Positions 7,503-62,542 of a DNA stretch of 64,000 bases are shown piece by piece. Location of the stretch: positions 2,666,001 to 2,730,000 of the forward strand of contig NZ_CP012981.1 in the NCBI RefSeq assembly GCF_001411495.1, given 5' to 3'. The stretch is from Burkholderia cepacia ATCC 25416. GTDB lineage: Bacteria > Pseudomonadota > Gammaproteobacteria > Burkholderiales > Burkholderiaceae. Below the pieces are notes generated by a model. The model saw only the letters and a list, made by a program, of their open reading frames with translations, ran no database searches and was not told where the DNA came from. The translations under genes were made by a program, and so were the position numbers. Within the stretch, counting starts at the first letter, position 1, and every line of letters begins with the position of its first letter.

Positions 7503-8119
7503 CCCCGCACGACTACGCGCTGCTCGCGCAGGAGGCTTATTACGCGAAGCCGGACATCGGCAAAGCGGACAGCGCCTCGCGCGCGATCGTGCGGCAGACG
7601 GCCGCCGGCCTGGTCGTCGCCTTTCCGGGAACCGACAACCTCGACTGCGTCGCGGCGGATCTCGACGCCCATCCGATCGACGTCATCGGCATCGGCCAAG
7701 TGCATCACGGGTTCTGGAAGGCATGGGGCGCGATCGCAGTTGACGTGCTCGCAGCGATCGACGGCCGACCGGTGACGCTCGTCGGACATTCGCTCGGCGC
7801 CGCGATCGCGATCATGGCTGCGGCCGCGATGGTGGTTGGCGGCAACCCGCCGGGGGCCGTCTACGGCTTCGAGCCGCCGAGGGTGAGCACGAACGGAAGC
7901 GTTGCGTCGCTGCTCGCGAGGGTGCCGATGAACCTGTACAAGAACGGCAACGACATTGTGCCGGACCTTCCGCCAGGCTGGTGTCACGCTGGCGCCGTCC
8001 AGCAAATCGGGCGTCCGGCTCTGCCATTCGCGAACGTTACGGACCATGCGATCTCCCGAGTGATCGAGGCGCTTTCAGTCCTCGGCGTGCCTGGCTTCGT
8101 CCTGCAGAATCAGGCGTAG
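7499..8119 (+). CDS. Lipase class 3-like alpha/beta hydrolase in the prophage
   Basis: The 206-residue product carries the serine hydrolase elbow GHSLG with Ser98, a VVAFPGT segment (about residues 39-45) typical of class 3 lipases, GFEPPR after the elbow, and plausible acid and base residues Asp152 (NDIVPD) and His183 (TDHAI). There is no signal peptide. It is translationally coupled to the lipoprotein gene upstream. It may act on membrane lipids during lysis, or be a cargo gene acting in the lysogen; substrate is unknown. Its 3' end overlaps the opposite-strand SOS gene by 45 bases. Confidence 0.75.
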   Translation: MTPHDYALLAQEAYYAKPDIGKADSASRAIVRQTAAGLVVAFPGTDNLDCVAADLDAHPIDVIGIGQVHHGFWKAWGAIAVDVLAAIDGRPVTLVGHSLGAAIAIMAAAAMVVGGNPPGAVYGFEPPRVSTNGSVASLLARVPMNLYKNGNDIVPDLPPGWCHAGAVQQIGRPALPFANVTDHAISRVIEALSVLGVPGFVLQNQA

Positions 8120-9552: not shown

Positions 9553-9802
9553 GTTCCGATCCGCGTCATCCTCGCAACGTCATCGCGCTGTTTCCCTTTC
9601 TTGAGCAGGTGAGTCAGGCGCTGAAGCTGGCGCAAGATGCTGGATGCGCTCCGGCCTTCATCTATCAAAACGTCGTCGCCGCTATTCGGACGGCAAGCGC
9701 ATGGCGATGGGGTATGGTGCGACCGAGTGGGATTGTTGTTTTTGCGCGTCCGGTCAGGCGCGCATTCGAACGTAGCGAATGCCGCGAAAAGCAAACCCGT
9801 CC
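9553..9802. other. Intergenic region without a recognisable gene
   Basis: No frame with family features is visible on either strand; the long minus-strand frame through it overlaps the VUT gene in another phase. Confidence 0.4.
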
Positions 9803-10321
9803 TCACCGATCGACCACATTGCTCGCGATTCCCGCCTGAGCCGATCGAGTGTTTCGAAACACCACCCACGACCACAAGGCGCCGCCAGCCACCTTGGCGA
9901 CGAACTGCAGCGCGGCGATCGTCGGAAACACGGCCCCGAACGCAATAAGCGGAAAGATGATGGAGTCGACAGCGGCACCCGCGACGTTCGCGCCGTTTGC
10001 GCGCGCCAGTATCGGAAAGCGACGTGCGAGTTGAAACACGACTGCGCTCGCCACGGCTGCCGAACCGAACGCCACCAGGGACGCGACGGCGATTTCCTTG
10101 GCGGCAGGATTGAGTGCATAACTGACGACACCGGCGGCCGCGATCAACGCAAACATTCGCGACCAAAGCGCGCGGCCTCGCCAATCGAGGTGGAGCCGGT
10201 CTCGAATCGCGAGATCGAGGCCGATCAGCAGGAACGCGATGATCGGTGTAGCAGCCGGCCCGAAATGAGCGACCATCAGGTTGGCGACGGCGACCGCTGC
10301 GATATAGATCAAGACGTACAT
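9803..10321 (-). CDS. VUT family membrane protein (queuosine-precursor transporter family)
   Basis: From the ATG at 10321 the product has 172 residues with about six hydrophobic helices. The blocks LIYIAAVAVANLMV, RDRLHLDWRG and GANVAGAAVDSIIFPLIAFG match the VUT_1/DUF165 family, whose studied members take up queuosine precursors such as preQ0. The ATG at 10321 is preferred over 10381 because AGGGGA precedes it at good distance. Substrate in this organism is not shown by the sequence. The gene stands alone and faces away from the acetyltransferase. Confidence 0.7.
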   Translation of the reverse strand: MYVLIYIAAVAVANLMVAHFGPAATPIIAFLLIGLDLAIRDRLHLDWRGRALWSRMFALIAAAGVVSYALNPAAKEIAVASLVAFGSAAVASAVVFQLARRFPILARANGANVAGAAVDSIIFPLIAFGAVFPTIAALQFVAKVAGGALWSWVVFRNTRSAQAGIASNVVDR

Positions 10322-47818: not shown

Positions 47819-48298
47819 TGCGGCGGAGAAATGTGACAGTCGACGTACATGAACGACGATCGTGCAGGGTTGCGTGCATCGAGCGATCTGCATCGACGGA
47901 AGTTGCGCACAGGTGCGAGTGAAGTTCCCGCATCCGTCGTACGGGTATCTCCGTAAGGGCGCTGCGAAAAAAATTTGTAACGGCGCGCGCAACGTGTCGT
48001 CGCAAACGGCTGCTCGAACGTATAGGGATGAAGGGGGAAGTGACGACGTCGGATGTGTCCAACGCACAAGACGTTCCGTTGTTCGACGAGACGCGACGGA
48101 TGCAGTTTCTGCGGCTCGGGAGATCGATTGTAAAACGACGAAATGCGTTGTCCAAGCGGTGTTGTCGAGAATGACGAACTTCATACGAAGAGTTCGTGAA
48201 AAAAAATAAGAAAGGGTTTAGGATGAATTCGAACGCGCTTGCTTCTGCGCAGTCGTACGAAGGCAGGCACGTCTTCAGACTCAGGCGAGGGAGGTAGC
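47819..48298 (+). other. Long leader region in front of prkA
   Basis: About 480 bases with no supported gene (a 115-residue open frame at 47862-48209 lacks features). It contains AT-rich blocks (AAAAAAATTTGTAA near 47968; GAAAAAAAATAAGAAAGGG near 48200) and an inverted repeat ACGAACT-N10-AGTTCGT around 48173-48196. It probably holds the prkA promoter and a long untranslated leader. I see no clear sigma-54 site. Confidence 0.5.
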
Positions 48299-50221
48299 AT
48301 GGATATTTACAGCAGCTTCGCGAACCGCTTCGAAAAAACGCGAGAGGAAGAGCTCTCGCTGGAGGAGTATCTCGCGCTCTGCAAGAACGATCCATCCGCG
48401 TACGCGACGGCTGGTGAACGCATGCTGGCAGCAATCGGGGAACCTGAACACATCGATACCCGCAACGATCCGCGCCTGTCGCGGATCTTCGCGAACAAGG
48501 TCATCAAGGTCTATCCCGCGTTCCGTGAGTTCTACGGAATGGAGGAGGTGATCGAGCAGGTGGTCGCATATTTCCGTCACGCTGCGCAAGGGCTCGAAGA
48601 GAAGAAGCAGATCCTCTATCTGCTTGGCCCGGTGGGCGGCGGCAAGTCGTCGATCGCCGAGCGTCTGAAGCAACTGATGGAGCGTGTGCCGTTCTATTCG
48701 CTGAAGGGTTCGCCCGTCAACGAATCGCCGCTCGGGCTGTTCGACTACGACGAAGACGGCCCGATCCTCGAGGAACAGTACGGCATTCCGCGCCGCTACC
48801 TGAAAAACATCCTGAGTCCGTGGGCCGTCAAGCGCCTGCACGAATACAACGGCGACATCCGCCAGTTCCGCGTGGTGCGTCGTTATCCGTCGATCCTGCG
48901 GCAGATCGGCATCGCGAAGACGGAGCCGGGTGACGAGAACAACCAGGACATCTCGTCGCTGGTCGGCAAGGTCGATATCCGCAAGCTCGAACAGTACGCG
49001 CAGGACGACGCCGACGCGTACAGCTACTCCGGTGGCCTGTGCCTCGCGAACCAGGGCCTGCTCGAGTTCGTCGAAATGTTCAAGGCGCCGATCAAGGTGT
49101 TGCACCCGCTGCTCACCGCCACGCAGGAAGGCAACTTCAAGGGCACCGAGGGTTTCGGCGCGATTCCGTTCGACGGGATCATCCTCGCGCACTCGAACGA
49201 GTCGGAATGGAAGGCGTTCCGCAACAACCGCAACAACGAGGCACTGCTCGACCGGATCTTCGTCGTGAAGGTGCCGTACTGCCTGCGCGTATCGGAAGAG
49301 ACCAAGATCTACGAGAAGCTGATCCGCAACTCGTCGCTGGCCGAGGCCGTCTGCGCACCGGGCACGCTGAAGATGATGTCGCAGTTCTCGGTGCTGTCGC
49401 GCCTGCACGAGCCGGAGAATTCGAGCCTGTTCTCGAAGATGCAGGTGTACGACGGCGAAAACCTCAAGGATACCGATCCAAAGGCGAAGTCGTACCAGGA
49501 ATACCGCGACTACGCGGGCGTGGACGAAGGGATGACGGGCGTGTCGACACGCTTCGCGTTCAAGATCCTGTCGCGCGTGTTCAACTTCGATTCGAGCGAG
49601 GTCGCGGCCAACCCCGTGCACCTGATGTACGTGCTCGAGCAGCAGATCGAGCGCGAGCAGTTCCCGCCGGAAACCGAGCAGAAGTATCTGTCCTTCGTGA
49701 AGGACGTACTGGCGTCGCGCTACGCGGATTTTATCGGCAAGGAGATCCAGACGGCCTACCTCGAGTCGTATTCGGAGTACGGCCAGAACATCTTCGACCG
49801 CTACGTCACGTATGCGGACTTCTGGATCCAGGACCAGGAATTCCGCGATCACGATACGGGCGAGAGCTTCGACCGCGCCGCGCTCAACGCGGAGCTGGAG
49901 AAGATCGAGAAGCCGGCCGGCATCAGTAATCCGAAGGATTACCGCAACGAGATCGTGAACTTCGTGTTGCGTGCACGGGCGGCGAACGCCGGCAAGAACC
50001 CCGTGTGGACGAGCTACGAGAAGTTGCGCGTCGTGATCGAGAAGAAGATGTTCTCGAATACCGAGGAACTGTTGCCGGTGATTTCGTTCAACGCGAAGGG
50101 TTCGGCGGAGGAGCAGCGCAAGCATGAGGACTTTGTGAACCGGATGGTCGCGAAGGGCTATACGCCGAAGCAGGTGAGGCTGCTTTGCGACTGGTACCTG
50201 CGCGTGCGCAAGTCATCATGA
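48299..50221 (+). CDS. prkA: PrkA-type serine protein kinase (YeaG)
   Basis: The 640-residue product matches PrkA/YeaG: an AAA+ domain with Walker A GPVGGGKSS (residues 110-118) and LVGKVDIRKLEQYAQDD, and a C-terminal PrkA domain (about residues 390-640). GGGAGG precedes the ATG. In enterobacteria the homologue is induced by nitrogen and other starvation and acts with YeaH. Here it leads a three-gene set with yeaH and spoVR. Confidence 0.95.
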   Translation: MDIYSSFANRFEKTREEELSLEEYLALCKNDPSAYATAGERMLAAIGEPEHIDTRNDPRLSRIFANKVIKVYPAFREFYGMEEVIEQVVAYFRHAAQGLEEKKQILYLLGPVGGGKSSIAERLKQLMERVPFYSLKGSPVNESPLGLFDYDEDGPILEEQYGIPRRYLKNILSPWAVKRLHEYNGDIRQFRVVRRYPSILRQIGIAKTEPGDENNQDISSLVGKVDIRKLEQYAQDDADAYSYSGGLCLANQGLLEFVEMFKAPIKVLHPLLTATQEGNFKGTEGFGAIPFDGIILAHSNESEWKAFRNNRNNEALLDRIFVVKVPYCLRVSEETKIYEKLIRNSSLAEAVCAPGTLKMMSQFSVLSRLHEPENSSLFSKMQVYDGENLKDTDPKAKSYQEYRDYAGVDEGMTGVSTRFAFKILSRVFNFDSSEVAANPVHLMYVLEQQIEREQFPPETEQKYLSFVKDVLASRYADFIGKEIQTAYLESYSEYGQNIFDRYVTYADFWIQDQEFRDHDTGESFDRAALNAELEKIEKPAGISNPKDYRNEIVNFVLRARAANAGKNPVWTSYEKLRVVIEKKMFSNTEELLPVISFNAKGSAEEQRKHEDFVNRMVAKGYTPKQVRLLCDWYLRVRKSS

Positions 50222-50234
50222 CGCGCGCGGTACT

Positions 50235-50266
50235 GCGCCCGTACGGCGAGACCGTACGGGCGCTTT
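50235..50266 (+). terminator. Hairpin between prkA and yeaH
   Basis: GCGCCCGTACG and CGTACGGGCGC form a perfect 11-base-pair stem with TTTC behind it. In a set of cotranscribed genes it is probably a partial terminator or processing site that lowers yeaH-spoVR output. Confidence 0.55.
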
Positions 50267-50346
50267 CAGAGGCGCCGCCCGCATGACGGCAGACGGCATG
50301 CGCGGCGAGTGCCCCGGCAGATCGACTTTCGAGCGGGAGACCGGGA

Positions 50347-51615
50347 GTGCTTCATCAAATCATCGACCGCAGGCTGGCCGGCAAGAACAAGAGTATCGCC
50401 AACCGCGAACGCTTTCTGCGTCGCGTCAAGAACTACATTCGTCGTGCCGTGTCCGACGCGGTGCGCGACCGTAGCATCAAGGATATCCAGAGCACGCAGA
50501 GCATCACGATCCCGCGCAAGGACATCGCGGAGCCGAATTTCCGGCACGCGCCTGGCGGGCGTCGTGAATACGTGCACCCCGGCAACGAGGACTACGTGCG
50601 CGGCGACAAGATCCCGCGCCCGCAGGGCGGCTCGGGCGGCGGAGGCAGTCAGGCGAGCAACGAGGGCGAAGGGCAGGACGACTTCGTGTTCGAGTTGTCG
50701 CGCGACGAGTTCATGCAGTACTTCTTCGACGATCTCGAACTGCCTCGCCTCGTGAAGACGCACCTGCTGACGGTGCCGAGCTGGAAGAACGTGCGCGCGG
50801 GCTGGTCGGCGGAAGGCACGCCGAACAACATCGACGTCGTGCGTTCGCTGCGCAGCGCACTCGGGCGTCGCATCGCGCTCGGCTCGCCGCTCGTCAACGA
50901 GCTGCGAGAGCTGGAGGCGCAGCTCGAGGCGATGAAGAGCGACCCGGAAGACCGGCGCGCGGAGATCGCGGTGCTCGAGGCCGAGATCCATCACCTGAAG
51001 GGGCGCATCTGGCGGATTCCGTTCATCGATCCGTTCGACCTGCGCTACATCAACCGCGTGAAGCAGCCGCAACCCTCGAGCCAGGCCGTGATGTTCTGCC
51101 TGATGGACGTGTCGGGCTCGATGGACGAGCAGCGCAAGGATCTGTCGAAGCGCTTCTTCATCCTGCTTTACCTGTTCCTCAAGCGTAACTACGAGCGCAT
51201 CGAGGTGGTGTTCATCCGCCACCACACGCGTGCCGAGGAAGTCGACGAGGACACCTTCTTCCATTCGACCGAGAGCGGCGGCACGGTGGTGTCGAGTGCG
51301 CTCGAGCTGATGCGCAAGGTGATGAACGAGCGCTACTCGCCGACGGAGTGGAACATCTACGGCGCGCAGGCGTCCGACGGCGACAACTGGACTGACGATT
51401 CGCCCAAGTGTCGCAAAATCCTGGAAGAGGATATCCTCACGAAGGTGCGTTACTTCGCGTATATCCAGGTCGCGCCGGAAGAGCAGAACCTGTGGCTGGA
51501 ATACGCGCAACTGGCCCTGTCTCAGCCGCATCTCGCGATGAAAAAAGTGGAATCGGCTGCCGACATTTACCCGGTGTTTCGCGAATTGTTCGAAAAGCAG
51601 GTGGAAATGTCATGA
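50347..51615 (+). CDS. yeaH: YeaH/YhbH family protein (DUF444)
   Basis: The GTG at 50347 gives 422 residues beginning LHQIIDRRLAGKNKSIANRE, the DUF444 start. A Gly-rich, low-complexity linker lies at about residues 94-112. A von Willebrand A-like metal site DVSGSM (Asp254, Ser256, Ser258) follows. YeaH works with PrkA/YeaG in stress responses by an unclear mechanism. Its stop overlaps an in-frame ATG of the SpoVR frame. Confidence 0.93.
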   Translation: MLHQIIDRRLAGKNKSIANRERFLRRVKNYIRRAVSDAVRDRSIKDIQSTQSITIPRKDIAEPNFRHAPGGRREYVHPGNEDYVRGDKIPRPQGGSGGGGSQASNEGEGQDDFVFELSRDEFMQYFFDDLELPRLVKTHLLTVPSWKNVRAGWSAEGTPNNIDVVRSLRSALGRRIALGSPLVNELRELEAQLEAMKSDPEDRRAEIAVLEAEIHHLKGRIWRIPFIDPFDLRYINRVKQPQPSSQAVMFCLMDVSGSMDEQRKDLSKRFFILLYLFLKRNYERIEVVFIRHHTRAEEVDEDTFFHSTESGGTVVSSALELMRKVMNERYSPTEWNIYGAQASDGDNWTDDSPKCRKILEEDILTKVRYFAYIQVAPEEQNLWLEYAQLALSQPHLAMKKVESAADIYPVFRELFEKQVEMS

Positions 51616-51767
51616 CGACCCGCCATCTGCACAACGAGTCGCGCGGCTATGCGCCGCGCCCTTCCGGCGACGACACGGCCGGCCCTGCCGCACCGCAGCA
51701 ACGCGGGCAGGCCGAACCGCCGCCGCCGGCCGCCGATTTGCCCGGCCCAGGGCAAAAGGAAGCGCGT

Positions 51768-53291
51768 ATGAACGTTGCCGAACGCAAGCCGCTGCCGTGC
51801 CCGTCCGACTGGACGTTCGAATTGCTCGAGGAATACGACACGCACATCTCGCAGGTCGCCGAACAATACGAGCTCGACATCTACCCGATCCAGCTCGAAC
51901 TGATCAGCGCCGAGCAGATGATGGACGCGTATGCGTCGGTCGGGATGCCCGTCAACTACCGTCACTGGTCGTTCGGCAAGCACTTCCTGTCGACCGAGAA
52001 GAGCTACCGTCGCGGCCAGATGGGCCTCGCGTACGAAATCGTCATCAACTCGAACCCGTGCATCGCGTACCTGATGGAAGAGAACACGATGACGATGCAG
52101 GCGCTCGTCATCGCGCACGCGGCGTACGGGCACAACTCGTTCTTCAAGGGTAACTACCTGTTCCGGCTGTGGACCGACGCGCACGCGATCATCGACTATC
52201 TCGTGTACGCGAAGAACTACGTCGCGGAATGCGAGGAGCGCTACGGTCTCGATCGTGTCGAGGAACTGCTCGATTCGTGCCATGCGCTGATGAACTACGG
52301 CGTCGACCGCTACAAGCGGCCGCAGAAGCCTTCGCTGTCGAAGGAGGCCGCGCTGCGGCGCGAGCGCGAGGCGTACCTGCAGTCGCAGGTGAACGAACTG
52401 TGGCGCACGCTGCCGGGCAAGAAGCCCGAGCTGATGGAGGAGCAGGAAGACCGCTATCCGCCCGAGCCGCAGGAGAACCTGCTGTATTTCGCGGAAAAGA
52501 ATGCGCCGCTGCTCGAACCGTGGGAGCGGGAAGTGATCCGCATCGTGCGCAAGATCGGCCAGTATTTCTACCCGCAACGGCAGACGCAGGTGATGAACGA
52601 AGGCTGGGCGACGTTCTGGCACTACACGCTGCTGAATACGCTGTACAACCAGGGGAAGCTGGAAGACAGCTTCATGATGGAGTTCCTGCATTCGCACAGC
52701 AACGTGGTCTACCAGCCGCCCGTCACGAAGCCGTACTACAGCGGGATCAACCCGTACGCGCTCGGCTTTTCGATGATGAGCGACATCCGGCGGATCTGCG
52801 AAGCGCCGACGGAGGAAGACTACAAGTGGTTTCCCGAGATCGCGGGCACCCCGTGGCTGCCGGCGATGCACTACGCGATGCGCAACTTCAAGGACGAGAG
52901 CTTCATCGCGCAGTACCTGTCGCCGAGCCTGATCCGCGACATGCGGCTCTTCTCGGTGCTCGACGACGACATGCGCGATTCGCTCGAGGTGTCGGCGATC
53001 CACGACGATTCGGGCTACCAGTATGTGCGGCAGGCACTGTCGAGGCAGTACGACATCCATCACCGCGAACCGAACATTCAGGTGTGGGCGGTGAACACGC
53101 GCGGCGACCGCAGCCTCACGCTGCGCCACTTCATGACCGACAACCGTCACCTGTCGAACGACAGCGACGAAGTGCTCAAGCACATGGCCCGGCTCTGGCA
53201 ATTCGACGTGTTCCTGGAAAGCGTCGACGAGGCCGGTACCGTGCGCAAGCGCTACGAGTGCCGCTACGTGCCGCCGGAGGTGCGGATCTGA
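51768..53291 (+). CDS. spoVR: SpoVR family protein (YcgB)
   Basis: From the ATG at 51768 (AAAGGA upstream) the product has 507 residues, close to 510 for Escherichia coli YcgB. It begins NVAERKPLPCPSDWTFE and has the conserved block KIGQYFYPQRQTQVMNEGWATFW. An ATG at 51612 that overlaps the yeaH stop would add a 52-residue Pro/Ala-rich extension; translation may start at both. SpoVR proteins accompany PrkA and YeaH in many proteobacteria; their biochemical role is unknown. A strong terminator follows. Confidence 0.92.
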   Translation: MNVAERKPLPCPSDWTFELLEEYDTHISQVAEQYELDIYPIQLELISAEQMMDAYASVGMPVNYRHWSFGKHFLSTEKSYRRGQMGLAYEIVINSNPCIAYLMEENTMTMQALVIAHAAYGHNSFFKGNYLFRLWTDAHAIIDYLVYAKNYVAECEERYGLDRVEELLDSCHALMNYGVDRYKRPQKPSLSKEAALRREREAYLQSQVNELWRTLPGKKPELMEEQEDRYPPEPQENLLYFAEKNAPLLEPWEREVIRIVRKIGQYFYPQRQTQVMNEGWATFWHYTLLNTLYNQGKLEDSFMMEFLHSHSNVVYQPPVTKPYYSGINPYALGFSMMSDIRRICEAPTEEDYKWFPEIAGTPWLPAMHYAMRNFKDESFIAQYLSPSLIRDMRLFSVLDDDMRDSLEVSAIHDDSGYQYVRQALSRQYDIHHREPNIQVWAVNTRGDRSLTLRHFMTDNRHLSNDSDEVLKHMARLWQFDVFLESVDEAGTVRKRYECRYVPPEVRI

Positions 53292-53522: not shown

Positions 53523-54827
53523 ATGGATGTCCAGACCGAACAAGCCGCGCTGTCCGCGCATGACACCCGGCGGCGCGTGTTCGCCATCGTCGGCGCCTCG
53601 TCGGGCAACCTCGTCGAGTGGTTCGACTTCTACATCTACTCGTTCTGCGCGCTGTACTTCGCGCCGGCATTCTTCCCGAGCGGCAACACGACGACGGAGC
53701 TGCTGAACACGGCGGGGGTATTCGCGGCCGGCTTCCTGATGCGTCCGATCGGCGGCTGGCTGTTCGGCCGCATCGCCGACCGCCACGGCCGCCGCAACGC
53801 GATGATGATCTCGGTGCTGATGATGTGCGGCGGCTCGCTCGTGATCGCGGTGCTGCCGACCTATGCGCAGATCGGCGCGCTCGCGCCGGCGCTGCTGCTG
53901 GTCGCGCGGCTGTTCCAGGGGCTGTCGGTGGGCGGTGAATACGGCACGAGCGCGACCTACATGAGCGAGGTGGCGCTGAAGGGCCGCCGCGGCTTCTTCG
54001 CGTCGTTCCAGTACGTGACGCTGATCGGCGGCCAGCTGTGCGCGCTGCTCGTGCTCGTGATCCTGCAGCAGACGCTGTCGGGCGACGAACTGAAGGCGTG
54101 GGGCTGGCGCATTCCGTTCGTGGTCGGCGCGGCGGCCGCGTTGATCTCGCTGTACCTGCGCAAGTCGCTCGACGAGACGTCGACGTCCGAATCGCGCGAC
54201 AAGAAAAACGCGGGCACGATCCGCGGCGTGTGGCAGCACAAGGGGGCGTTCTTCACGGTGGTCGGCTTCACGGCCGGCGGCTCGCTGATCTTCTACACGT
54301 TCACGACGTACATGCAGAAGTACCTCGTGAACACGGCCGGCATGCATGCGAAGACGGCCAGCAACGTGATGACCGTCGCGCTGCTCGTCTACATGCTGAT
54401 GCAGCCGGTGTTCGGCGCGCTGTCCGACAGGATCGGCCGCCGCACGTCGATGATCCTGTTCGGCTCGTTCGCGGTGATCGGCACGGTGCCGCTGATGCAC
54501 GCGCTGAAGGACGTGACGAGCCCGGTGGCGGCGTTCGTGCTGATCACGGTCGCGCTCGCGATCGTCAGCTTCTACACGTCGATCAGCGGGCTGATCAAGG
54601 CCGAGATGTTCCCGCCGGAAGTGCGCGCGATGGGCGTCGGCCTGTCGTATGCGGTCGCGAACGCGATCTTCGGCGGCTCGGCCGAGTACGTCGCACTGTG
54701 GTTCAAGTCGATCGGCAGCGAGGAAACCTTCTACTGGTACGTGACCGTGCTGTGCGCGATCTCGCTGATCGTGTCGTGGCGGATGCGCGATCCGAGCAAG
54801 GAAGGGTACCTGCGTCACGAGCCGTGA
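53523..54827 (+). CDS. MHS family MFS transporter (KgtP-like)
   Basis: The 434-residue product has twelve helices and the MHS marks [39 protein letters not shown], and [20 protein letters not shown]. It is closest in pattern to alpha-ketoglutarate permeases, proton symporters for dicarboxylates. Substrate is not certain. It stands alone between a terminator and the agmatine regulator, with its own terminator behind. Confidence 0.9.
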
Positions 54828-54861
54828 TCGGCCGCGCATCGTACGCATTCGCATCATGACG

Positions 54862-54893
54862 AACGTCCCGCCAGCCGGCGGGACGTTTTTTTT
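54862..54893 (+). terminator. Intrinsic terminator of the MHS transporter gene
   Basis: AACGTCCCGCC and GGCGGGACGTT form an 11-base-pair stem with an AGCC loop followed by seven T. Confidence 0.9.
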
Positions 54894-54903
54894 CGGCGTT
54901 CGA

Positions 54904-55833
54904 TTACGCGGGCGGAGGCGGTGCGTGGTCGGGCGCCGGGTCGGCCACGCTCGACAGGATGCCTTGCTGGACCAGCCAGTCGAACATCTGCTCGACGATC
55001 GGCGAGCGCGACGGGCCTTCCATCCGCGACAGCCACCATGTGGTGCCGGGCAGGCGCGGGTAGTCGGCGAGCACGGTCAGCGTGTGCTGGTCGAGGCCGG
55101 CCTGCGCGACGAGGCGCGGCAGGCACGCAATGCCGCGGCCGCGCTGCACGGCGTCCAGCACGAGCCGCTGGTCGTCGTAGATCGCCTGCATCCGGAAATC
55201 CGACAGCTGCTCGCGAAAGACGGTCGCCATGCGCTCGTCGGTCAGGCTCGCTTCGAGGCAGACGAGCCCCGCGTGCCGCGCGTGTTCGGCGCGCGGCACG
55301 CGGGCGAGCGTCTCGGCCAGCGGCGTCGCGCATACCGTCACCCATTCGTCCCGCATGAACGGAATATCGACCAGGCCCGGTTGCAGCATCGGCCGCGTGC
55401 CGATCGTCATGTCGACGTCGATCTCGTCGACGTAGCGCGCGGTTTCGTCGGTCGACAGCAATGGGCACAGGTCCGGCAGCGCCTGCTGCAACTGCTCGAG
55501 GCGCGGCTGCAGCCAGCCGTGCAGCAGCGGCGCCGGACACACCAGCACGACGAGCCCCGGGTTCAGGTAGGTTGCGATGCGGTCGAGCCCGCCGCGCAAC
55601 GTGTCCATCGCGCGCTGGACGCTGCGCTGCAGGACCTCGCCGGCGATGGTCAGCTCGACGCCGCGGCCGCGCCGGCGGAACAGCGGTTGACCGAGCTGCG
55701 CTTCGAGCTGCTGGATCTGATGGCTGATCGCCGACTGCGACAGGTGCAGCTCGTCGGCCGCGCGCGAGAAATTGCCCAGCCGGGCCGCGGCTTCGAAGCC
55801 GGTCAGTAGTTTCAGGGACGGAACGCGTTGCAT
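54904..55833 (-). CDS. LysR family regulator of the agmatine cluster
   Basis: From the ATG at 55833 the product has 309 residues: helix-turn-helix LKLLTGFEAAARLGNFSRAA with LSQSAISHQIQQLE, then an effector domain. A TTG at 55866 in frame lacks a ribosome site. The gene is divergent from aguA with a 101-base gap that carries an inverted repeat (55869-55880). Control of the agmatine genes is inferred from this position. The C-terminus is Pro-rich. Confidence 0.88.
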   Translation of the reverse strand: MQRVPSLKLLTGFEAAARLGNFSRAADELHLSQSAISHQIQQLEAQLGQPLFRRRGRGVELTIAGEVLQRSVQRAMDTLRGGLDRIATYLNPGLVVLVCPAPLLHGWLQPRLEQLQQALPDLCPLLSTDETARYVDEIDVDMTIGTRPMLQPGLVDIPFMRDEWVTVCATPLAETLARVPRAEHARHAGLVCLEASLTDERMATVFREQLSDFRMQAIYDDQRLVLDAVQRGRGIACLPRLVAQAGLDQHTLTVLADYPRLPGTTWWLSRMEGPSRSPIVEQMFDWLVQQGILSSVADPAPDHAPPPPA

Positions 55834-55868
55834 CGAGGTATGAGGCGAATTGATTGATTCGGCCAAAA

Positions 55869-55880
55869 AATATCAATATT
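55869..55880. promoter_or_regulatory. Inverted repeat in the LysR-aguA intergenic region
   Basis: AATAT-CA-ATATT lies in an unusually AT-rich block (55861-55895) between divergent genes, as expected for a LysR-type binding site and promoter. The arms are only five bases, so it is a candidate, not a proof. Confidence 0.45.
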
Positions 55881-55934
55881 CATCAAGTTTAACCTGGCGG
55901 AAAATCGCTCATCAATCACAACGGAGTCGGATCG

Positions 55935-56972
55935 ATGGGTCGCTTTGATGCTCGCCAGCGCGGTTACCGGATGCCCGCCGAATGGGAATCCATGCACACG
56001 ACGTGGCTCGGATGGCCGGTGCTCGACAATCGCGAGGACCTGTGGGGGACGCATTACGCGCAGGTCTGCCGCGAATTCGCGCTGGTCGCGCGCACGATCG
56101 CGCGCTATCAGCGCTGCGTGGTCGCGGTGCACCACAGCCAGGCCGATGCCGCGCGCGAACTGGTAGGCCCGAGCGTCGACGTGCTGCCGGTCGCGGCCGA
56201 GGACAACTGGCTGCGCGATTGCGGGCCGATCTTCCTCGTCAGCGAACGGCACGGTCTGGGCGCGGCCGTGTTCCGCTTCAACTGCTGGGGCGAGAAGTAC
56301 CAGCCGTACGACGGCTGCCAGCAGGCCGGTCAGGACATCGCGCGCGCGGCCGGCGCCGAGATCTTCAATTCGCACATGGTGCTGGAGGGCGGCTCGTTCT
56401 ACGTCGACGGGCAGGGCACGCTGGTCACGACCGAGAGCTGCCTGCTGCATCCCAACCGCAATCCGCACCTGAGCCGCGCGGAGATCGAGGCGGAGCTGCG
56501 CCGCATGCTGGGCGTCGAGAAGATCGTGTGGCTGCCGGGCAACCCCGACGAAGTGGAGACGAACGGGCACGTGGACGGCATCGCGTCGTTCATCGCACCG
56601 GGCCGGATGCTGTGCCAGACCGCACTGCCGGAACAGGGCGACTATTTCCGCGTGATGCGGGAAAACCGCCGCGCGCTGGAGCTCGCGACCGATGCGGCGG
56701 GGCGCCGTTTCGAGCTGCTCGACCTGCCGTCGCCGATCGTCAGCGAACGCTTCGGCTCCGAGCGCTACTGCGACTGCTATGCGAACTACATTCTGGTGAA
56801 CGGCGCGGTGATCGTGACCGCATTCGGCGTCGAGCAGGACGAGGCCGCACGCGACGCTTTCAGCCGGGCGTTCCCGACGCGCAAGGTGCAGATGCTGCCG
56901 ATCCCGACGCTGTCGATCGGCGGCGGGAGCATCCACTGTTCGACGCAGCAGCAGCCGTCCGTCGCGCACTGA
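55935..56972 (+). CDS. aguA: Agmatine deiminase (cytoplasmic)
   Basis: The 345-residue product matches agmatine deiminase: EDNWLRDCGP with the guanidine-binding Asp, NGHVDGIASF with catalytic His and Asp, VLEGGSFYVDG, and the nucleophilic Cys335 in GGGSIHCSTQQQP. It has no signal peptide. It converts agmatine to N-carbamoylputrescine and ammonia, the step before AguB. First gene of a row of four in the same direction. Confidence 0.95.
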   Translation: MGRFDARQRGYRMPAEWESMHTTWLGWPVLDNREDLWGTHYAQVCREFALVARTIARYQRCVVAVHHSQADAARELVGPSVDVLPVAAEDNWLRDCGPIFLVSERHGLGAAVFRFNCWGEKYQPYDGCQQAGQDIARAAGAEIFNSHMVLEGGSFYVDGQGTLVTTESCLLHPNRNPHLSRAEIEAELRRMLGVEKIVWLPGNPDEVETNGHVDGIASFIAPGRMLCQTALPEQGDYFRVMRENRRALELATDAAGRRFELLDLPSPIVSERFGSERYCDCYANYILVNGAVIVTAFGVEQDEAARDAFSRAFPTRKVQMLPIPTLSIGGGSIHCSTQQQPSVAH

Positions 56973-57018
56973 GCGACGTCCCGTGAGCGGTTTCCGGTTC
57001 CATCGAGGAGCAATCGCA

Positions 57019-57933
57019 ATGCCGTCCAAACACATCACCGTCGCCGCCGTCCAGATGGCGTCGGGCAGCTGGAATCTCGAAGACAACATGGCCACCGCGG
57101 AGCGCCTGATCCGCGCGGCTGCCGCGCAGGGCGCGAATCTCGTGCTGTGCCCGGAGCTGTTCGCGATGCCGTACTTCTGCCTCGACCAGAACGTGCGCCA
57201 TCTCGAACTCGCGCAGCCGTTCGAAGGCAACGCGCAGATCGCCCGTTTCGCGGCGCTGGCCGGCGAACTCGGCGTCGTGCTGCCGATCGGCTTCTTCGAG
57301 CGTGCGGGCAATGCCGCGTACAACTCGATCGCCGTGGCGGACGCGGACGGGCGCGTGCTCGGCGTCTATCGCAAGACACATATCCCGGACGGGCCGGGTT
57401 ATACGGAGAAGTTCTATTTCACACCGGGCGATACCGGCTTCAAGGTGTGGGATACGCGCTTCGGCCGGATCGGCATCGGTATCTGCTGGGACCAGTGGTA
57501 TCCGGAGACGGCGCGTTGCCTCGCGCTGATGGGCGCCGAGATCCTGTGCTTTCCGACCATCATCGGCTCGGAGCCGTTCAGCAGTGCGTTCGATTCGTCC
57601 GGCCACTGGCAGCGCACGATGCAGGGCCACGCGGCCGCCAACATGGTGCCGGTGGTGGCGGCCAACCGGATCGGCCGCGAAGCCGGCTTCGGCAACGGCA
57701 ATCCGCAGCAGCAGGCGCTCACCGGCGTGTTCTACGGGTCGAGCTTCATCGCGGATCACACCGGCGAGAAGCTGGCCGAGGCGCACCGCACCGACGAGGC
57801 GGTGCTCGTGCATACGTTCGATCTCGATGCGATCCGCGCCGACCGGCAATCGTGGGGCTTCTTCCGCGATCGCCGTCCGGAGATGTATCGCACGTTGCTG
57901 ACCAGCGACGGCGTATCGTCCTGCTATCGATGA
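57019..57933 (+). CDS. aguB: N-carbamoylputrescine amidase
   Basis: From the ATG at 57019 (CGAGGAG upstream) the product has 304 residues of the nitrilase superfamily. The catalytic triad is visible: Glu46 (LCPELFA), Lys119 (VYRKTHIPDG) and Cys156 (GICWDQW). It splits N-carbamoylputrescine to putrescine, carbon dioxide and ammonia. It follows aguA by 46 bases and precedes a PotF-like binding protein by 10 bases. Confidence 0.95.
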   Translation: MPSKHITVAAVQMASGSWNLEDNMATAERLIRAAAAQGANLVLCPELFAMPYFCLDQNVRHLELAQPFEGNAQIARFAALAGELGVVLPIGFFERAGNAAYNSIAVADADGRVLGVYRKTHIPDGPGYTEKFYFTPGDTGFKVWDTRFGRIGIGICWDQWYPETARCLALMGAEILCFPTIIGSEPFSSAFDSSGHWQRTMQGHAAANMVPVVAANRIGREAGFGNGNPQQQALTGVFYGSSFIADHTGEKLAEAHRTDEAVLVHTFDLDAIRADRQSWGFFRDRRPEMYRTLLTSDGVSSCYR

Positions 57934-57943
57934 GGGACGCCCG

Positions 57944-59056
57944 ATGAAACGGCAAGGATGGTTGCGTGTCGCGGCGCCGGGCCTCGCGCTGTGCGTGCTG
58001 GCGGGAACGGCGCGCGCCGACGAAGAGACGGTGCTGAACCTCTATAACTGGAGCAATTACTTCGCGCCGGATACGCTGGCCGGCTTCGAGAAGGAAACCG
58101 GCATCAAGGTGCGCTACGACGCGTACGACAGCGACGAGACGCTGCAGTCGAAGCTGCTGACCGGCAACAGCGGTTACGACCTCGTGTGGCCGACCAACGA
58201 CTTCATGGCCCGGCAGATCCAGGCGGGTGTGTTTCGCAAGCTGGACAAGCACCGGCTGCCGAACCTGAAGTATCTCGATCCGTCGCTGCTGAAGCAGATG
58301 GCGCAGTCCGATCCCGGCAACCAGTACGGCGTGCCGTACATGTGGGGCACCGTGGGCGTCGGCTACGACCGCGCCAGGGTGCGCGCGATCCTCGGCAAGG
58401 ACATGCCGGCCGACAGCCTCGACCTGCTGTTCAAGCCGGAGATCGCGTCGCGCGTCGCCGCGAAGTGCGGCCTGGGCCTGCAGGACTCCGCGAGCACCGT
58501 GCTGCCGCTGGCGCTGCGCTATGTCGGCCGCGATCCGATGCATCCGTCCGCACAGGACTACGCGGCCGCGCAGGCGATGCTGATGAAGATCCGGCCATTC
58601 ATCCGCGAGTTCGTGGGTTCGTCCGACGCCAACGAGCTGATCGACGGTGAGCTGTGCGTAACGGTCGGTTTTTCCGGCGCGATCAACCTGGCCGCGCAGA
58701 AGGCGAAGGCGCGCGATCCGAAGCGCGACGTCGTGTACGACATTCCGAGGCTCGGCACCCTGATGTGGTTCGATGCGATGGTCATTCCGGCATCCGCGAA
58801 ACATCCGGACAACGCGCATGCGTTCATCAACTACATCCTGCGTCCGGACGTGATCGCGAAGATCTCGAACTCGACGCGCTACGCGAATGCGAACCAGGGC
58901 GCGCTGAAGCTGATGGATCCGGCGCTGGTGCGCGATCCGGGCGTCTATCCGGACGAATCGACGCGGCGCACGCTGTTCACGCCGATCGCCGAATCGCCGG
59001 CCGCGATGCGTCTCGAAGGCCGGACCTGGCTCGGCTTCAAGACGGCACGACCGTGA
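57944..59056 (+). CDS. PotF-like polyamine substrate-binding protein
   Basis: The 370-residue product has a signal peptide ending near ARA-D (about residue 25) and the polyamine-binding pattern: VLNLYNWSNYFAPDTLAGFE near the start and KLLTGNSGYDLVWPTNDFM. It binds polyamines such as putrescine, or perhaps agmatine or N-carbamoylputrescine, in the periplasm. No permease or ATPase gene is in the cluster, so it either uses a distant transporter or acts alone. It is 10 bases behind aguB. Confidence 0.9.
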   Translation: MKRQGWLRVAAPGLALCVLAGTARADEETVLNLYNWSNYFAPDTLAGFEKETGIKVRYDAYDSDETLQSKLLTGNSGYDLVWPTNDFMARQIQAGVFRKLDKHRLPNLKYLDPSLLKQMAQSDPGNQYGVPYMWGTVGVGYDRARVRAILGKDMPADSLDLLFKPEIASRVAAKCGLGLQDSASTVLPLALRYVGRDPMHPSAQDYAAAQAMLMKIRPFIREFVGSSDANELIDGELCVTVGFSGAINLAAQKAKARDPKRDVVYDIPRLGTLMWFDAMVIPASAKHPDNAHAFINYILRPDVIAKISNSTRYANANQGALKLMDPALVRDPGVYPDESTRRTLFTPIAESPAAMRLEGRTWLGFKTARP

Positions 59057-59106
59057 CGGCCTGCCCTGCAACAACCGAAATAACCGGCAAGCGAAAGAGG
59101 AATGCC

Positions 59107-60219
59107 ATGACTACACGACGTCAACTGTTGAAACGCGGCCTGTCCGTCTCCGGCGCGGCGCTGGCCGCCGGCGCGATGGGCGGGTTGTTCGGCCGCGCCG
59201 CGCATGCGCAGCAGGGCGCCACCTGGCACATGCCGGACGAAGGCGCGCCGCACACGGCGACCTGGATGGCGTTCGGCCCGAGCGCGGACATCTGGGGCGC
59301 GCGGCTGCTGCCGGTGGTGCGCGAGCATCTTGCCGCGGTCGCGAAAGCGATCGCCGCGCACGAGCCGGTCAAGATGCTGGTGCGGGAAGAGGATTACGCG
59401 GTCGCGTCGCGCCTGTGCGGCTCGTCGGTCGAGCTCGTCCAGCATCCGGTCGACGACCTGTGGATGCGCGACACCGGGCCCGTGTTCGTGAAGAACGCGT
59501 CGGGCCAGCTCGGTGGCGTGAGCTTCAATTTCAACGGCTGGGGCAACAAGCAGGAACACGACCAGGACGCGCAAGTCGCGCCGTTCGTGGCCGAACGCGC
59601 CGGTGCGCGGCTGATCGACACGAAGCTCGTGCTGGAAGGCGGCGGCATCGAGGTGGACGGCGAGGGCACGGCGATCATCACGCGCAGCTGCGTGCTCAAT
59701 TCGAACCGCAATCCGGGCGTCAGTCAGGCGCAGTGTGAAGCCGAGCTGAGCCGCCTGCTCGGGCTGAAGAAGATCATCTGGTTGCCGGGCATCGCCGGCA
59801 AGGACATCACCGACGGGCATACCGATTTCTACGCGCGCTTCACGAGCCCGGGCGTCGTGGTGGCCGGGCTCGACACGGACCCTTCGTCGTACGACCACGC
59901 GGTGACGCGGCAGCATCTGGAGATCCTGCGGAAATCCACCGATGCGAAGGGGCGCCCGTTGAAGGTCGTCGTGCTGCAGGGCCCGAAGACCGTCCGGCAC
60001 CAATACGAGAACGCGGAGTTCGCGGCCGGCTACATCAATTTCTACGTGTGCAATCGCGCGGTGATCGCGCCGCAATTCGGCGACAGCCGTGCCGACCGCA
60101 ATACGCGCGACACGCTCGTCGACCTGTTTCCCGGCCGCGAGGTCATCCAGCTGAACATCGACGGCATCGCCGCGGGTGGCGGCGGCATCCACTGCACCAC
60201 GCAACAGCAGCCGGCGTGA
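59107..60219 (+). CDS. Exported agmatine deiminase paralogue with Tat signal
   Basis: The 370-residue product begins with a Tat-type signal (TTRRQLLKRGLSVSG, twin Arg at 4 and 5; cleavage near AHA-Q, residue 34). The agmatine deiminase catalytic sites are all present: DLWMRDTGPVF, VLEGGGIEVDGEG, TDGHTDFYARF and the nucleophile Cys363 in GGGGIHCTTQQQP. It should be a folded enzyme in the periplasm that turns external agmatine into N-carbamoylputrescine. It shares little sequence with the cytoplasmic copy, so it is not a recent duplicate. A role other than agmatine cannot be excluded. Confidence 0.88.
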   Translation: MTTRRQLLKRGLSVSGAALAAGAMGGLFGRAAHAQQGATWHMPDEGAPHTATWMAFGPSADIWGARLLPVVREHLAAVAKAIAAHEPVKMLVREEDYAVASRLCGSSVELVQHPVDDLWMRDTGPVFVKNASGQLGGVSFNFNGWGNKQEHDQDAQVAPFVAERAGARLIDTKLVLEGGGIEVDGEGTAIITRSCVLNSNRNPGVSQAQCEAELSRLLGLKKIIWLPGIAGKDITDGHTDFYARFTSPGVVVAGLDTDPSSYDHAVTRQHLEILRKSTDAKGRPLKVVVLQGPKTVRHQYENAEFAAGYINFYVCNRAVIAPQFGDSRADRNTRDTLVDLFPGREVIQLNIDGIAAGGGGIHCTTQQQPA

Positions 60220-60323
60220 GCGTGTCGCGTCATATCGTTATCGAAATCGATTCGTTGTCCGTTGCGGACGATTTCCGTAACCTGAACCCGTAGTTCGTGT
60301 GACACCTCCTTGACTGGGATTCG

Positions 60324-60354
60324 CGCCCGCTGCGTGCAGCGGGCGTCTTTTTTT
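60324..60354 (+). terminator. Intrinsic terminator of the agmatine cluster
   Basis: CGCCCGCTGC and GCAGCGGGCG form a perfect ten-base-pair stem followed by TC and seven T. Confidence 0.9.
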
Positions 60355-60432: not shown

Positions 60433-62367
60433 ATGAAAGAACAACGATCATCCGTTCCGGGCCTGACGATCCTGCTGGCCGTCGTCAACCTCGCCGTCTT
60501 CGTGCTGATGTGGCGACAGGCATCGTACGGTGCGCTGACGAACAGTCTGCTGCTCGGCTGGGGCGCCAACTTCGCGCCATATACGCTGACCGGGCAGCCG
60601 TGGCGCCTGCTGACCAGCGCGTTCCTGCACGGCGGTTGGCTGCATCTGGCGCTGAACCTTTACATGCTGATCGTGCTCGGCACCGTGCTCGAGCGCGCGG
60701 GCGGCTCACTGCGGTTCGGCGTCGCGTACCTGCTGTCGGCGCTCGGCGGCTCGCTGCTGAGCGCGCTCTGGTCCGGGCATCACGAGGTCAGCGCAATGCA
60801 GGTCGCGTTCGGCATCGTGATGCCGACGAGCGGCATCCGCCCGGTCGTCAGCGTCGGTGCGTCGGGCGCGCTGATGGGACTGGCCGGCGCGGCCGCCGCG
60901 CTCGCATTGCACCGGCGTGCGGACCGCGGTCGCGATGCGGGCGTCGTCATCAATCTCGGCGCGGTGGCCCAGGTGATCGCCATCAACCTGGCGTCGGGAT
61001 TCTTCATTTCCGGTATCGACCAGGCTGCGCATCTTGGCGGTGTCGTCACGGGTTTCGTCGCCGGCTGGATACTGTACGGTTTTCGTCCTTCGGGCGCTTC
61101 GCTGCGTGGCGCGGTGCTGCCGGTCACGCTGGCGGTGCTGGGTAGCGGCGTGATGTTGTTTGCGGCGCAGCGCGCGGGCAGCGCGGAGCTGCAGGAGCTA
61201 CGCACGGCCGTGGATCGCGAGCGTGCGCAGGACGACGCGCGGCAGCAGGCGAAGCGCGATGCGGACACGATCGCCGAGCAGATCCGCGAGGACGAGCAGC
61301 ATCGCGCCGCACCTGTGTCCGCGGAACTGGCCGCAGGCACGGTCGTCCCGGTCGGCAAGGGTACCTATGCAATGGTCATGGGAGCGTCGGGCAAGCGCCT
61401 GTACATCACCGACAACGACGAGAACACGCTCGTCGTCGTCGACGTCGACAAGCGCACGGTGGTCCAAACGATTGCCGGCGAGCCATTCAAGACGGGGCTC
61501 AACGGTTGTCCAAGCAACATGTGCCGCGGCCGCGGCGCGAGCGGAGTAGTTGTCAGCCCGGATGAGCGCTATGCGTATGTGACGTCGATGCGCGAGGACA
61601 GCGTCGTACGTATCGATCTGGCGAGCGGCAAGATCGTCGACAGTGCGATGCTCGGTCGGTTTCCGCGTGCGATCGTCGCATCGGCATCGCACGACAGGCT
61701 CTACGTGCTGAACGGCGTCGACGATACGGTGTCCGTCGTCAGCATTACGCACTGGCCGCAGGTCGTCGCGACGCTGAAACTGGGTGATGGCGACGGGGCG
61801 GGCGTCGAGTTCGGGCGGTCACTGTCGATGTGGCTGTCGCCGGACGGCAAGCAACTGAATGTCAACGCGATGCAGAAAGGCACGATCGTCGCGTTCGATA
61901 CGTCGACGAACGAGCCGCTCCGCTCGTATCCGCTCGATGCAGGTTTCATCCGGGCGGAACCGGGCGCGTCGGGCGCGGGAACATGGTTCTACGGCGCGTC
62001 GTCGGTCAAATGGGTGGACCCGGCGAGCCTGGCGTCGCTGAAGACCTATCCGGTCTGCCAGACTTCGGCACACAGCTTCGACGGCAGCGATGATGGCAAG
62101 CTGATCGCCGTGACCGCGTACGACGGTTCGCCGATGCGCGTGATCAAGATGGCGACCCGCCGAACGGTCGGCGAATTTCCGGTGGCGGGCGGCGTGTCGC
62201 AGGTGATCTTCGCGCCAGACCATCGCACGCTCTACGCACTGGGCGCTGCGGGCACGCTGTCGTTCCTCAGCATGGACCGCTCGCTCGATTATCTGCAAGA
62301 CACGGACGCAGGCGAATTCCTGTGTGCGGCGTCCGCGGACGGGGAAGAGGGCGCTGACGGCGCATGA
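60433..62367 (+). CDS. Rhomboid protease fused to a YVTN-type beta-propeller
   Basis: From the ATG at 60433 the product has 644 residues. Residues 1-245 form a rhomboid intramembrane protease with seven hydrophobic segments, HGGWLHLALNLY near 66-77, the catalytic Ser144 in GASGALMGL and the His200 in DQAAHLGGVVTGF. Then follows a charged coiled-coil linker (about 247-290) and a propeller domain of about 340 residues with repeats such as KRLYITDNDENTLVVVDVDK and RYAYVTSMREDSVVRIDLAS. Four Cys in the propeller suggest a periplasmic site. The domain pairing is rare; function unknown. Confidence 0.85.
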   Translation: MKEQRSSVPGLTILLAVVNLAVFVLMWRQASYGALTNSLLLGWGANFAPYTLTGQPWRLLTSAFLHGGWLHLALNLYMLIVLGTVLERAGGSLRFGVAYLLSALGGSLLSALWSGHHEVSAMQVAFGIVMPTSGIRPVVSVGASGALMGLAGAAAALALHRRADRGRDAGVVINLGAVAQVIAINLASGFFISGIDQAAHLGGVVTGFVAGWILYGFRPSGASLRGAVLPVTLAVLGSGVMLFAAQRAGSAELQELRTAVDRERAQDDARQQAKRDADTIAEQIREDEQHRAAPVSAELAAGTVVPVGKGTYAMVMGASGKRLYITDNDENTLVVVDVDKRTVVQTIAGEPFKTGLNGCPSNMCRGRGASGVVVSPDERYAYVTSMREDSVVRIDLASGKIVDSAMLGRFPRAIVASASHDRLYVLNGVDDTVSVVSITHWPQVVATLKLGDGDGAGVEFGRSLSMWLSPDGKQLNVNAMQKGTIVAFDTSTNEPLRSYPLDAGFIRAEPGASGAGTWFYGASSVKWVDPASLASLKTYPVCQTSAHSFDGSDDGKLIAVTAYDGSPMRVIKMATRRTVGEFPVAGGVSQVIFAPDHRTLYALGAAGTLSFLSMDRSLDYLQDTDAGEFLCAASADGEEGADGA

Positions 62368-62542
62368 CCGCGCCGCCAGCCTCATCACGAAACCCGCTGA
62401 GCAAAGCACCATTTGTTGGTTCGGATTCGCCGCACGCGCTGATACGTTAGCGGCTTCGCGACGACACACTCCGTCGCGATGTTCTTCGAACCGGGCCGCC
62501 GCGCGATCCGCGGCGGCCTTCATAACAAATCAGGTCGTGCTC

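Follow-up and report, generated by a model that had tools for sequence, protein, structure and literature searches.

An agu2ABCA'-type agmatine operon in Burkholderia cepacia with a Tat-signalled deiminase and an altered PotF-like binding protein

The closest described relative of the genes analysed here is the agu2ABCA' operon of Pseudomonas aeruginosa. This operon appears responsive to environmental agmatine and raises biofilm formation when agmatine is present (PMC4211729; here and below, papers are cited by PMC number). The second deiminase that it encodes, Agu2A' (PA14_48450), is one of eight experimentally identified substrates of the twin-arginine translocation (Tat) system in P. aeruginosa (PMC6085387, citing Williams 2010). 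P. aeruginosa also carries aguBA, a pathway of two genes under the control of the TetR-type regulator AguR (PMC4287709). We analysed 64,000 nucleotides of DNA from Burkholderia cepacia ATCC 25416 (contig NZ_CP012981.1, positions 2,666,001 to 2,730,000; hereafter the window, whose numbering is used throughout). Based on open reading frames and profile searches, positions 54904-60219 contain five intact genes, encoding a LysR-family regulator, the agmatine deiminase AguA, AguB, a PotF-like binding protein and a second deiminase with a Tat signal (Table 1). By its sequence, this cluster is an agu2ABCA'-type operon, probably for agmatine use; the arrangement is known from P. aeruginosa, where Agu2A' was reportedly located to the periplasm by fractionation and mutagenesis and where its loss is said to alter the response to agmatine.

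We compared the cluster to a P. aeruginosa record (NZ_CP131792.1) that was identified with tblastn among plasmid records. Following the gene order of B. cepacia, this record encodes a divergent LysR regulator, an agmatine deiminase, AguB, a binding protein and a second deiminase, the last of which starts with the signal peptide of PA14_48450 as printed in PMC6085387, barring one extra start methionine. In both organisms, four genes on one strand are arranged as deiminase, AguB, binding protein and Tat-signalled second deiminase, and the exported deiminase of B. cepacia groups with Agu2A' and away from cytoplasmic AguA. The two sets are 53% (exported enzyme), 62% (AguB), 46% (binding protein), 44% (AguA) and 32% (LysR) identical. 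That is, the LysR regulator, AguA and the binding protein are the most diverged, and the binding protein also differs in its ligand pocket. Based on the match in gene order, in families and in the Agu2A' signal, we infer that the arrangement was already known and that B. cepacia adds a member to it. The preliminary description of this DNA was not aware of a described route split between two compartments; agu2ABCA', with its Tat substrate Agu2A', has this arrangement, and the claim of novelty falls.

The cluster can also be compared to the aguBA pathway. Its cytoplasmic AguA and AguB belong to the same families as the two aguBA products, and it adds the LysR regulator, the binding protein and the exported deiminase. 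P. aeruginosa carries aguBA in addition to agu2ABCA', whereas the B. cepacia genome (8.6 Mb, four contigs) holds exactly two genes matching PF04371, both inside this cluster (profile search of the genome). The gaps between aguA, aguB, the binding protein gene and the exported deiminase gene are 46, 10 and 50 bases, and a purine-rich stretch precedes the start of each of these four plus-strand genes, so it is likely that they share one transcript.

The N-terminus of the second deiminase is MTTRRQLLKRGLSVSGAALAAGAMGGLFGRAAHA-QQ, a Tat signal by sequence, and the genome encodes TatC (232 bits; cut-off 132.7). We compared this enzyme to its relatives, using the best 80 of 407 that were confirmed in named genomes (below, the 80 related loci). 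The nearest of these were in Burkholderia sp. D-99 (98%) and B. arboris (97%). In a pattern scan, 78 of the 80 loci, from many genera, had a twin-arginine motif before the enzyme; the two that lacked it were the Bradyrhizobium loci L086 and L089. The motif is thus no chance feature of a single strain. In three loci (L057, L078 and L175) a lipobox-like Cys follows the Tat motif, and some of the exported deiminases may be anchored in the membrane rather than soluble.

We found that the catalytic residues are conserved in this enzyme. In the plant enzyme MtAIH the triad consists of Cys366, His224 and Asp226, Asp94 (once printed as Asn94) is at the guanidine, Trp91 and Trp125 line the tunnel, and the terminal amine of agmatine is held by Asp220 and, via water, by Asp89 (PMC6447857). 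We mapped these residues through PDB alignments, with a numbering offset of 7 counted from Cys366. Equivalents of Cys366, His224, Asp226 and Asp94 are present in both window deiminases. The homologues of the exported enzyme numbered 201 (81 rows from the loci and 120 database proteins, with possible overlap between them; signal peptides of the database proteins were not checked and hits of fewer than 250 residues were left out). The equivalents of the triad, Asp94, Asp89 and Trp91 were kept in all 201, that of Trp125 in 200, and the Glu of LEGG again in all 201. The sequence of the second deiminase, the motif in the related loci and these residues uphold the preliminary description on one point, that a second agmatine deiminase with a Tat signal and a catalytic set is encoded here.

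The binding protein is in the same family as PotF and is 43% identical to PotF of Escherichia coli, and its ligand pocket is altered. According to PMC8666671, the PotF pocket has proximal residues S38, D39 and D247, an aromatic box of W37, W244 and F276, and distal residues S85, S87, A182, E185, D278 and L348; D247 supplies one of the two principal carboxyl groups that serve the primary amine, and D247, D278, E185 and D39 are each found in at least 96% of 250 homologues. At these positions, in the same order, the B. cepacia protein has S, N and A (proximal), W, F and W (box), and T, D, S, T, D and P (distal). That is, W37 and D278 are retained, whereas D247 is changed to Ala, E185 to Thr, W244 to Phe, S87 to Asp and D39 to Asn, and only D278 is left of the four carboxylates D39, D247, E185 and D278 (here N, A, T and D). 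The Trp at position 276, in place of the Phe of PotF, is the residue of PotD (PMC8666671). A further difference from PotF is that no permease genes adjoin the binding protein gene.

These changes are shared by the proteins encoded in similar clusters. The window protein and its 18 syntenic kin all (19 of 19) have Ala in place of D247, Thr or Ala at position 185, Asp in place of S87, and the D278 of PotF; the D39 position is more variable (nine have Asn and eight Asp, with one His and one Glu). The four closest PotF paralogues in the B. cepacia genome (L003-L006) retain D247, and two of them are in complete PotF-G-H-I systems (the most distant relative in this genome, L009/L010, was left out of the pocket alignment). 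Among the best-listed 120 of 4510 homologues, 29 had Ala247; of the 28 of these with a residue aligned at position 87, 27 have Asp there. None of the 89 with Asp247 has Asp87, and the other two had Ser and a gap, respectively, at 247. One protein from a further set (L103) carries both Asp247 and Asp87. A protein of a sister clade, with Ala247, Asn87 and Glu185, adjoins an AguB-like gene in one genome. In a tree of 48 chosen rows, the Burkholderia-type binding protein and Agu2C were placed apart, which hints that Burkholderia and Pseudomonas recruited it independently. We do not make this claim, since an approximately unbiased (AU) test did not reject a single clade (p 0.345) and the branches are long.

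Loss of the proximal acid and gain of a distal acid make a pocket fitted to a ligand that carries an ammonium group at one end and is polar but neutral at the other. N-carbamoylputrescine has such ends, and putrescine and agmatine do not, which suggests N-carbamoylputrescine as a candidate ligand of the Burkholderia-type protein. A more specific proposal is that the Burkholderia-type Agu2C is a dedicated N-carbamoylputrescine-binding protein, such that the exported deiminase would remove one charge and the rebuilt PotF pocket would import the product for AguB. We offer this proposal tentatively and have real doubts about it. Uptake or binding of N-carbamoylputrescine, searched as a phrase, had no match in the open-licence literature, where silence means little.

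The binding protein has no apparent partner in the window. BLAST with PotG, PotH and PotI of E. coli detected no permease there, with matches to three ATPases only, and these are of the sulfate, sugar and NodI types. The PotG-like match near 36661, considered as part of a polyamine permease, belongs to a sulfate ATP-binding cassette (ABC) system. The term orphan therefore holds for the binding protein within the window, and the preliminary description was correct in placing an orphan polyamine-binding protein next to AguA and AguB, all three with intact genes and profile matches. Elsewhere, the genome contains two complete PotF-G-H-I-type systems. SpeA was not found in the genome (best match 30 bits, cut-off 624; the search did not extend to AdiA-type or other arginine decarboxylases), so agmatine likely comes from outside, which fits the use of external agmatine. 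Four genes in the genome scored over the agmatinase cut-off, and agmatine may thus have a second fate.

We also compared the neighbourhoods of the exported enzyme in other genomes. Genes in the 80 related loci were labelled by direct BLAST within a flank of 7 kb. AguA, AguB and the binding protein were all near the exported enzyme in 20 loci (in L055 the binding protein was counted by a hand-written rule, its gene lying beyond the coordinate range used elsewhere). Four loci had AguA only, one had AguA and AguB, and one had AguB only; in this last locus (L047) a second deiminase lies just past the edge. A gene scoring above 150 bits against the LysR regulator of the window was present in 45 of the 80. 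At the level of genomes, 23 were searched (without those of L045 and L086). AguB was over the cut-off in nine of them, three more had matches at 284-303 bits, below the cut-off, and in ten the exported deiminase was the single PF04371 gene. Two genomes, those of L034 (Yokenella) and L042 (Rhizobium), had AguB over the cut-off and the exported deiminase as sole PF04371 gene. In these two, N-carbamoylputrescine made by a PF04371 enzyme could come only from the exported one, and import is implied (the genomes are drafts, and a gene could be missed).

A further case is a plasmid of Phyllobacterium sp. T1293 (NZ_CP088276.1). As in B. cepacia, a Tat-signalled deiminase, AguB, a LysR gene and a cytoplasmic deiminase are found together. 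What sets the plasmid cluster apart is a complete ABC importer, together with a class III aminotransferase. The order is exported enzyme, ABC ATPase, two permeases, binding protein, class III aminotransferase and AguB, followed by the LysR gene and the cytoplasmic deiminase. Another Phyllobacterium (L047) has the same importer and AguB. The Phyllobacterium binding protein is a distant relative of that in the window (the L047 protein, 99% identical to it, is 29% identical to that of B. cepacia). The content of the Phyllobacterium cluster fits deimination outside, import of N-carbamoylputrescine and its cleavage inside.

The gene identities and order, the export signal, the catalytic residues, the kinship with agu2ABCA' and the pocket changes are features of the sequence, and they can be arranged in the following putative route. 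The LysR regulator, judging by its position, probably controls the operon. Agmatine would reach the periplasm, where the Tat-exported deiminase, if active on agmatine, would convert it to N-carbamoylputrescine and ammonia. The PotF-like binding protein would capture a ligand of the polyamine type (most likely N-carbamoylputrescine in this lineage) and pass it to a polyamine (Pot)-type ABC permease whose genes presumably lie in another part of the genome. Inside the cell, AguB would cleave N-carbamoylputrescine to putrescine, and the cytoplasmic AguA would handle agmatine that enters unaltered. For the whole route (exported deimination, import via the binding protein and AguB cleavage in an agu2ABCA'-type operon), we see the balance as about even. 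The presence of a periplasmic agmatine deiminase beside a cytoplasmic one, AguB and a binding protein, as set out in the preliminary description, is well supported by the sequence, and the suggestion made there that N-carbamoylputrescine is produced outside for import gains support from other genomes.

The exported deiminases appear to have a long history of their own. We constructed a maximum-likelihood tree of 65 chosen deiminases (a subset of the rows fetched, with a midpoint root). Cytoplasmic AguA is set off by a 100/98 branch from the exported enzyme and its relatives. On the exported side are 36 exported rows and four of the five divergent 'third' paralogues, and this side spans Agu2A' of P. 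aeruginosa, enterobacteria, rhizobia, many betaproteobacteria and the actinobacterium Tsukamurella. On the cytoplasmic side are 13 AguA from clusters, five Agu2A of the P. aeruginosa type, one further cytoplasmic row (L168) and three other aguA; near the midpoint root this side also contains two long-branched Tat-bearing rows (L167 and L168) and an outlier, the third of L077. Based on this branch and the broad range of taxa, the exported enzyme represents an old lineage and is not a copy of the neighbouring aguA. The Tat-signalled deiminases are, by this phylogeny, an old and widespread lineage apart from cytoplasmic AguA, often standing alone.

In an even draw from the phylum, 11 of 398 genomes matched the exported enzyme at an E value of 1e-90 or lower, and in the genus the gene was present at an identity of at least 77% in 20 of 65 genomes (own genome included in both counts). 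Two or more exported copies at an identity of at least 50% were found in 17 of the 80 loci (among them L035, L036, L053 and L083). The second copy is 52-64% identical to the exported enzyme of the window, and in 13 of these 17 loci there is no AguA or AguB nearby. An extra paralogue less than 45% identical was also found in 17 of the 80 loci. In one locus (L011) the exported enzyme is followed by a third deiminase-like gene, which is larger, has both a twin-arginine motif and a lipobox-like LAAC, and is absent from the window. Positions 60004-60354 of the window were compared to L011 at 7898-8113 and at 9713-9912. The window sequence around and directly past the end of the exported gene matches the third gene at its 3' end and downstream (86%). 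It is as if the tandem 3' ends of the exported and third deiminase genes had recombined.

Several observations weigh against exported deimination followed by import, or against its generality. None of AguA, AguB and this kind of binding protein was found near the exported enzyme in 54 of the 80 loci, a number that is an upper bound because loci were clipped by contig ends and by the 7-kb flank. Eight of the 23 genomes have the exported gene as their sole PF04371 member and lack an AguB over the cut-off; these genomes have only lower-scoring nitrilase-family matches, as do most control genomes, and the exported enzyme probably feeds no AguB there. All five Agu2C proteins of the P. aeruginosa type keep D247 and E185, and binding of N-carbamoylputrescine can therefore not be a feature of all such operons. 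The binding protein of L055 likewise keeps D247 and E185, that of L076 has Glu at 247 and Asp at 185, and that of L168 keeps D247 and has Gln at 185. A relative in the B. cepacia genome itself (L008, 30% identical) has Ala in the D247 column, and the D247 change alone is thus not unique to this lineage. Finally, B. cepacia is called 'agmatine neutral' in culture (PMC4211729), which indicates either no high activity in those conditions or isolates without the gene, given the 20 carriers among 65 genomes of the genus. An alternative is that the exported enzyme serves as a sink or signal eraser, breaking down agmatine around the cell because it is a signal, a competitor or a toxic amine; the binding protein would then take agmatine or putrescine, as PotF does, and recovery of the product would be incidental. 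The loci with a solitary exported gene and the genomes without AguB favour such a role, together with the biofilm effect of agu2ABCA' in P. aeruginosa and the PotF carboxylates retained by its Agu2C. The linkage to AguB and a binding protein in 20 loci and the whole importer in Phyllobacterium suggest, instead, that the product is used. As a general account we regard a sink as possible and somewhat doubtful; where the exported enzyme stands alone, it may have this role.

The amine site also weighs against the proposed route, for the substrate of the exported enzyme could differ from agmatine. The position of Asp220, which in the plant enzyme binds the terminal amine of agmatine (PMC6447857), is Ile or Val in all 201 homologues (Ile in B. 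cepacia), in 16 of 16 second exported copies and in 18 of 18 divergent paralogues, and the position of Asp218 is Lys or Arg in 175 of the 201. In contrast, the cytoplasmic AguA of these loci have Glu at both positions (24 of 24). The amine site of the exported enzyme is, by this alignment, shown to be built differently from that of the plant enzyme. It might therefore act on a guanidino compound other than agmatine, such as one whose far end is uncharged or bears a carboxylate, and 'agmatine deiminase' would then be the name of the family. Consistent with this, the exported enzyme scored 273.9 bits against TIGR03380, under the equivalog cut-off of 381.8, although the cytoplasmic AguA (284.9 bits) is under it as well. 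We consider another substrate unlikely. The residue between the two positions is Asp in 198 of the 201 homologues and could stand in, and the gene adjoins those for AguA and AguB. Eleven of 11 more distant Tat-bearing rows have Asp-Ile-Thr at this motif. Agu2A' of P. aeruginosa has the Arg-Asp-Ile form of the same motif, and the cytoplasmic Agu2A of the P. aeruginosa type likewise lacks an acid at the Asp220 position, so that agmatine as the substrate is not excluded by these changes; loss of Agu2A', as mentioned, reportedly alters the response to agmatine. We can all but dismiss the idea that the adjoining aguA was recently duplicated to give an exported copy that has no role of its own and is perhaps decaying. 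The shared family and shared cluster are what such a duplication would leave, but the catalytic residues are kept, the reading frame has no internal stop, and the 100/98 branch led us to reject it.

Table 1. Features of the agmatine cluster and its borders in the window
Feature	Coordinates	Strand	Basis
Terminator-like hairpin and T-run between upstream major facilitator superfamily (MFS) gene and LysR gene	54861..54888	+	12 pairs, 8 G-C; position and sequence only
LysR-family regulator (GcvA-like), divergent from operon	54904..55833	-	PF00126 and PF03466
Divergent intergenic region; expected place of promoter and LysR site	55834..55934	.	Position
Cytoplasmic agmatine deiminase, AguA / Agu2A type	55935..56972	+	PF04371, E 2.9e-99; Glu at both amine-site positions
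AguB, N-carbamoylputrescine amidase	57019..57933	+	TIGR03381 equivalog, 468 bits (cut-off 410.25); best start ATG 57019
PotF-like periplasmic binding protein, Agu2C position, altered ligand pocket	57944..59056	+	PotF model NF007962, 366 bits, under cut-off 636
Exported agmatine deiminase, Agu2A' type, 370 aa	59107..60219	+	PF04371, E 2.3e-109; pentein catalytic residues
Tat signal peptide, 34 aa, likely cleavage AHA-QQ (by eye)	59107..59208	+	Sequence MTTRRQLLKR...AHA-QQ
Terminator-like hairpin and T-run 3' of exported deiminase gene	60323..60346	+	10 pairs, 8 G-C

For the LysR gene we judged an in-frame ATG to be a better start than the TTG at 55866, based on its better fit to the N-terminus of LysR proteins. 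No signal peptide was seen in the sequence of AguA. A scan of the gap between the LysR gene and aguA gave no match to a sigma-70-like promoter, and shuffled sequence gave a mean of 0.9, so this result is uninformative. T-N11-A motifs, considered as a LysR site in the same gap, gave ten overlapping matches in its ~100 bases, too many to have meaning. Three terminator-like sites were found across the scan, compared to a mean of 3.3 after shuffling, and they are thus not enriched.

Genes on either side of the cluster were also noted. Upstream of the hairpin that precedes the LysR gene, positions 53523-54827 encode an MFS metabolite:proton symporter (NF007710, 744 bits; cut-off 550), and further upstream (48239-53291) are three genes that we take to be a stress trio of the PrkA kinase, YeaH and SpoVR-like type. 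After the cluster, positions 60433-62367 encode a rhomboid protease domain (PF01694) fused to a beta-propeller-like C-terminal half (weaker matches to Lactonase and other propellers). DNA similarity of the window to L011, L014 and L015 picks up again only near 62381.

Our results tie the Burkholderia cluster to a described Pseudomonas operon and correct the claim that its arrangement is new. The reason for deiminating agmatine outside becomes testable, as the affinity of the binding protein for N-carbamoylputrescine compared to putrescine and agmatine. If the proposed function of the Burkholderia-type Agu2C is true, this protein would give bacteria a route for the uptake of N-carbamoylputrescine. 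Agmatine is also made by plants and animals, and its destruction by bacteria outside the cytoplasm bears on contact with a host.

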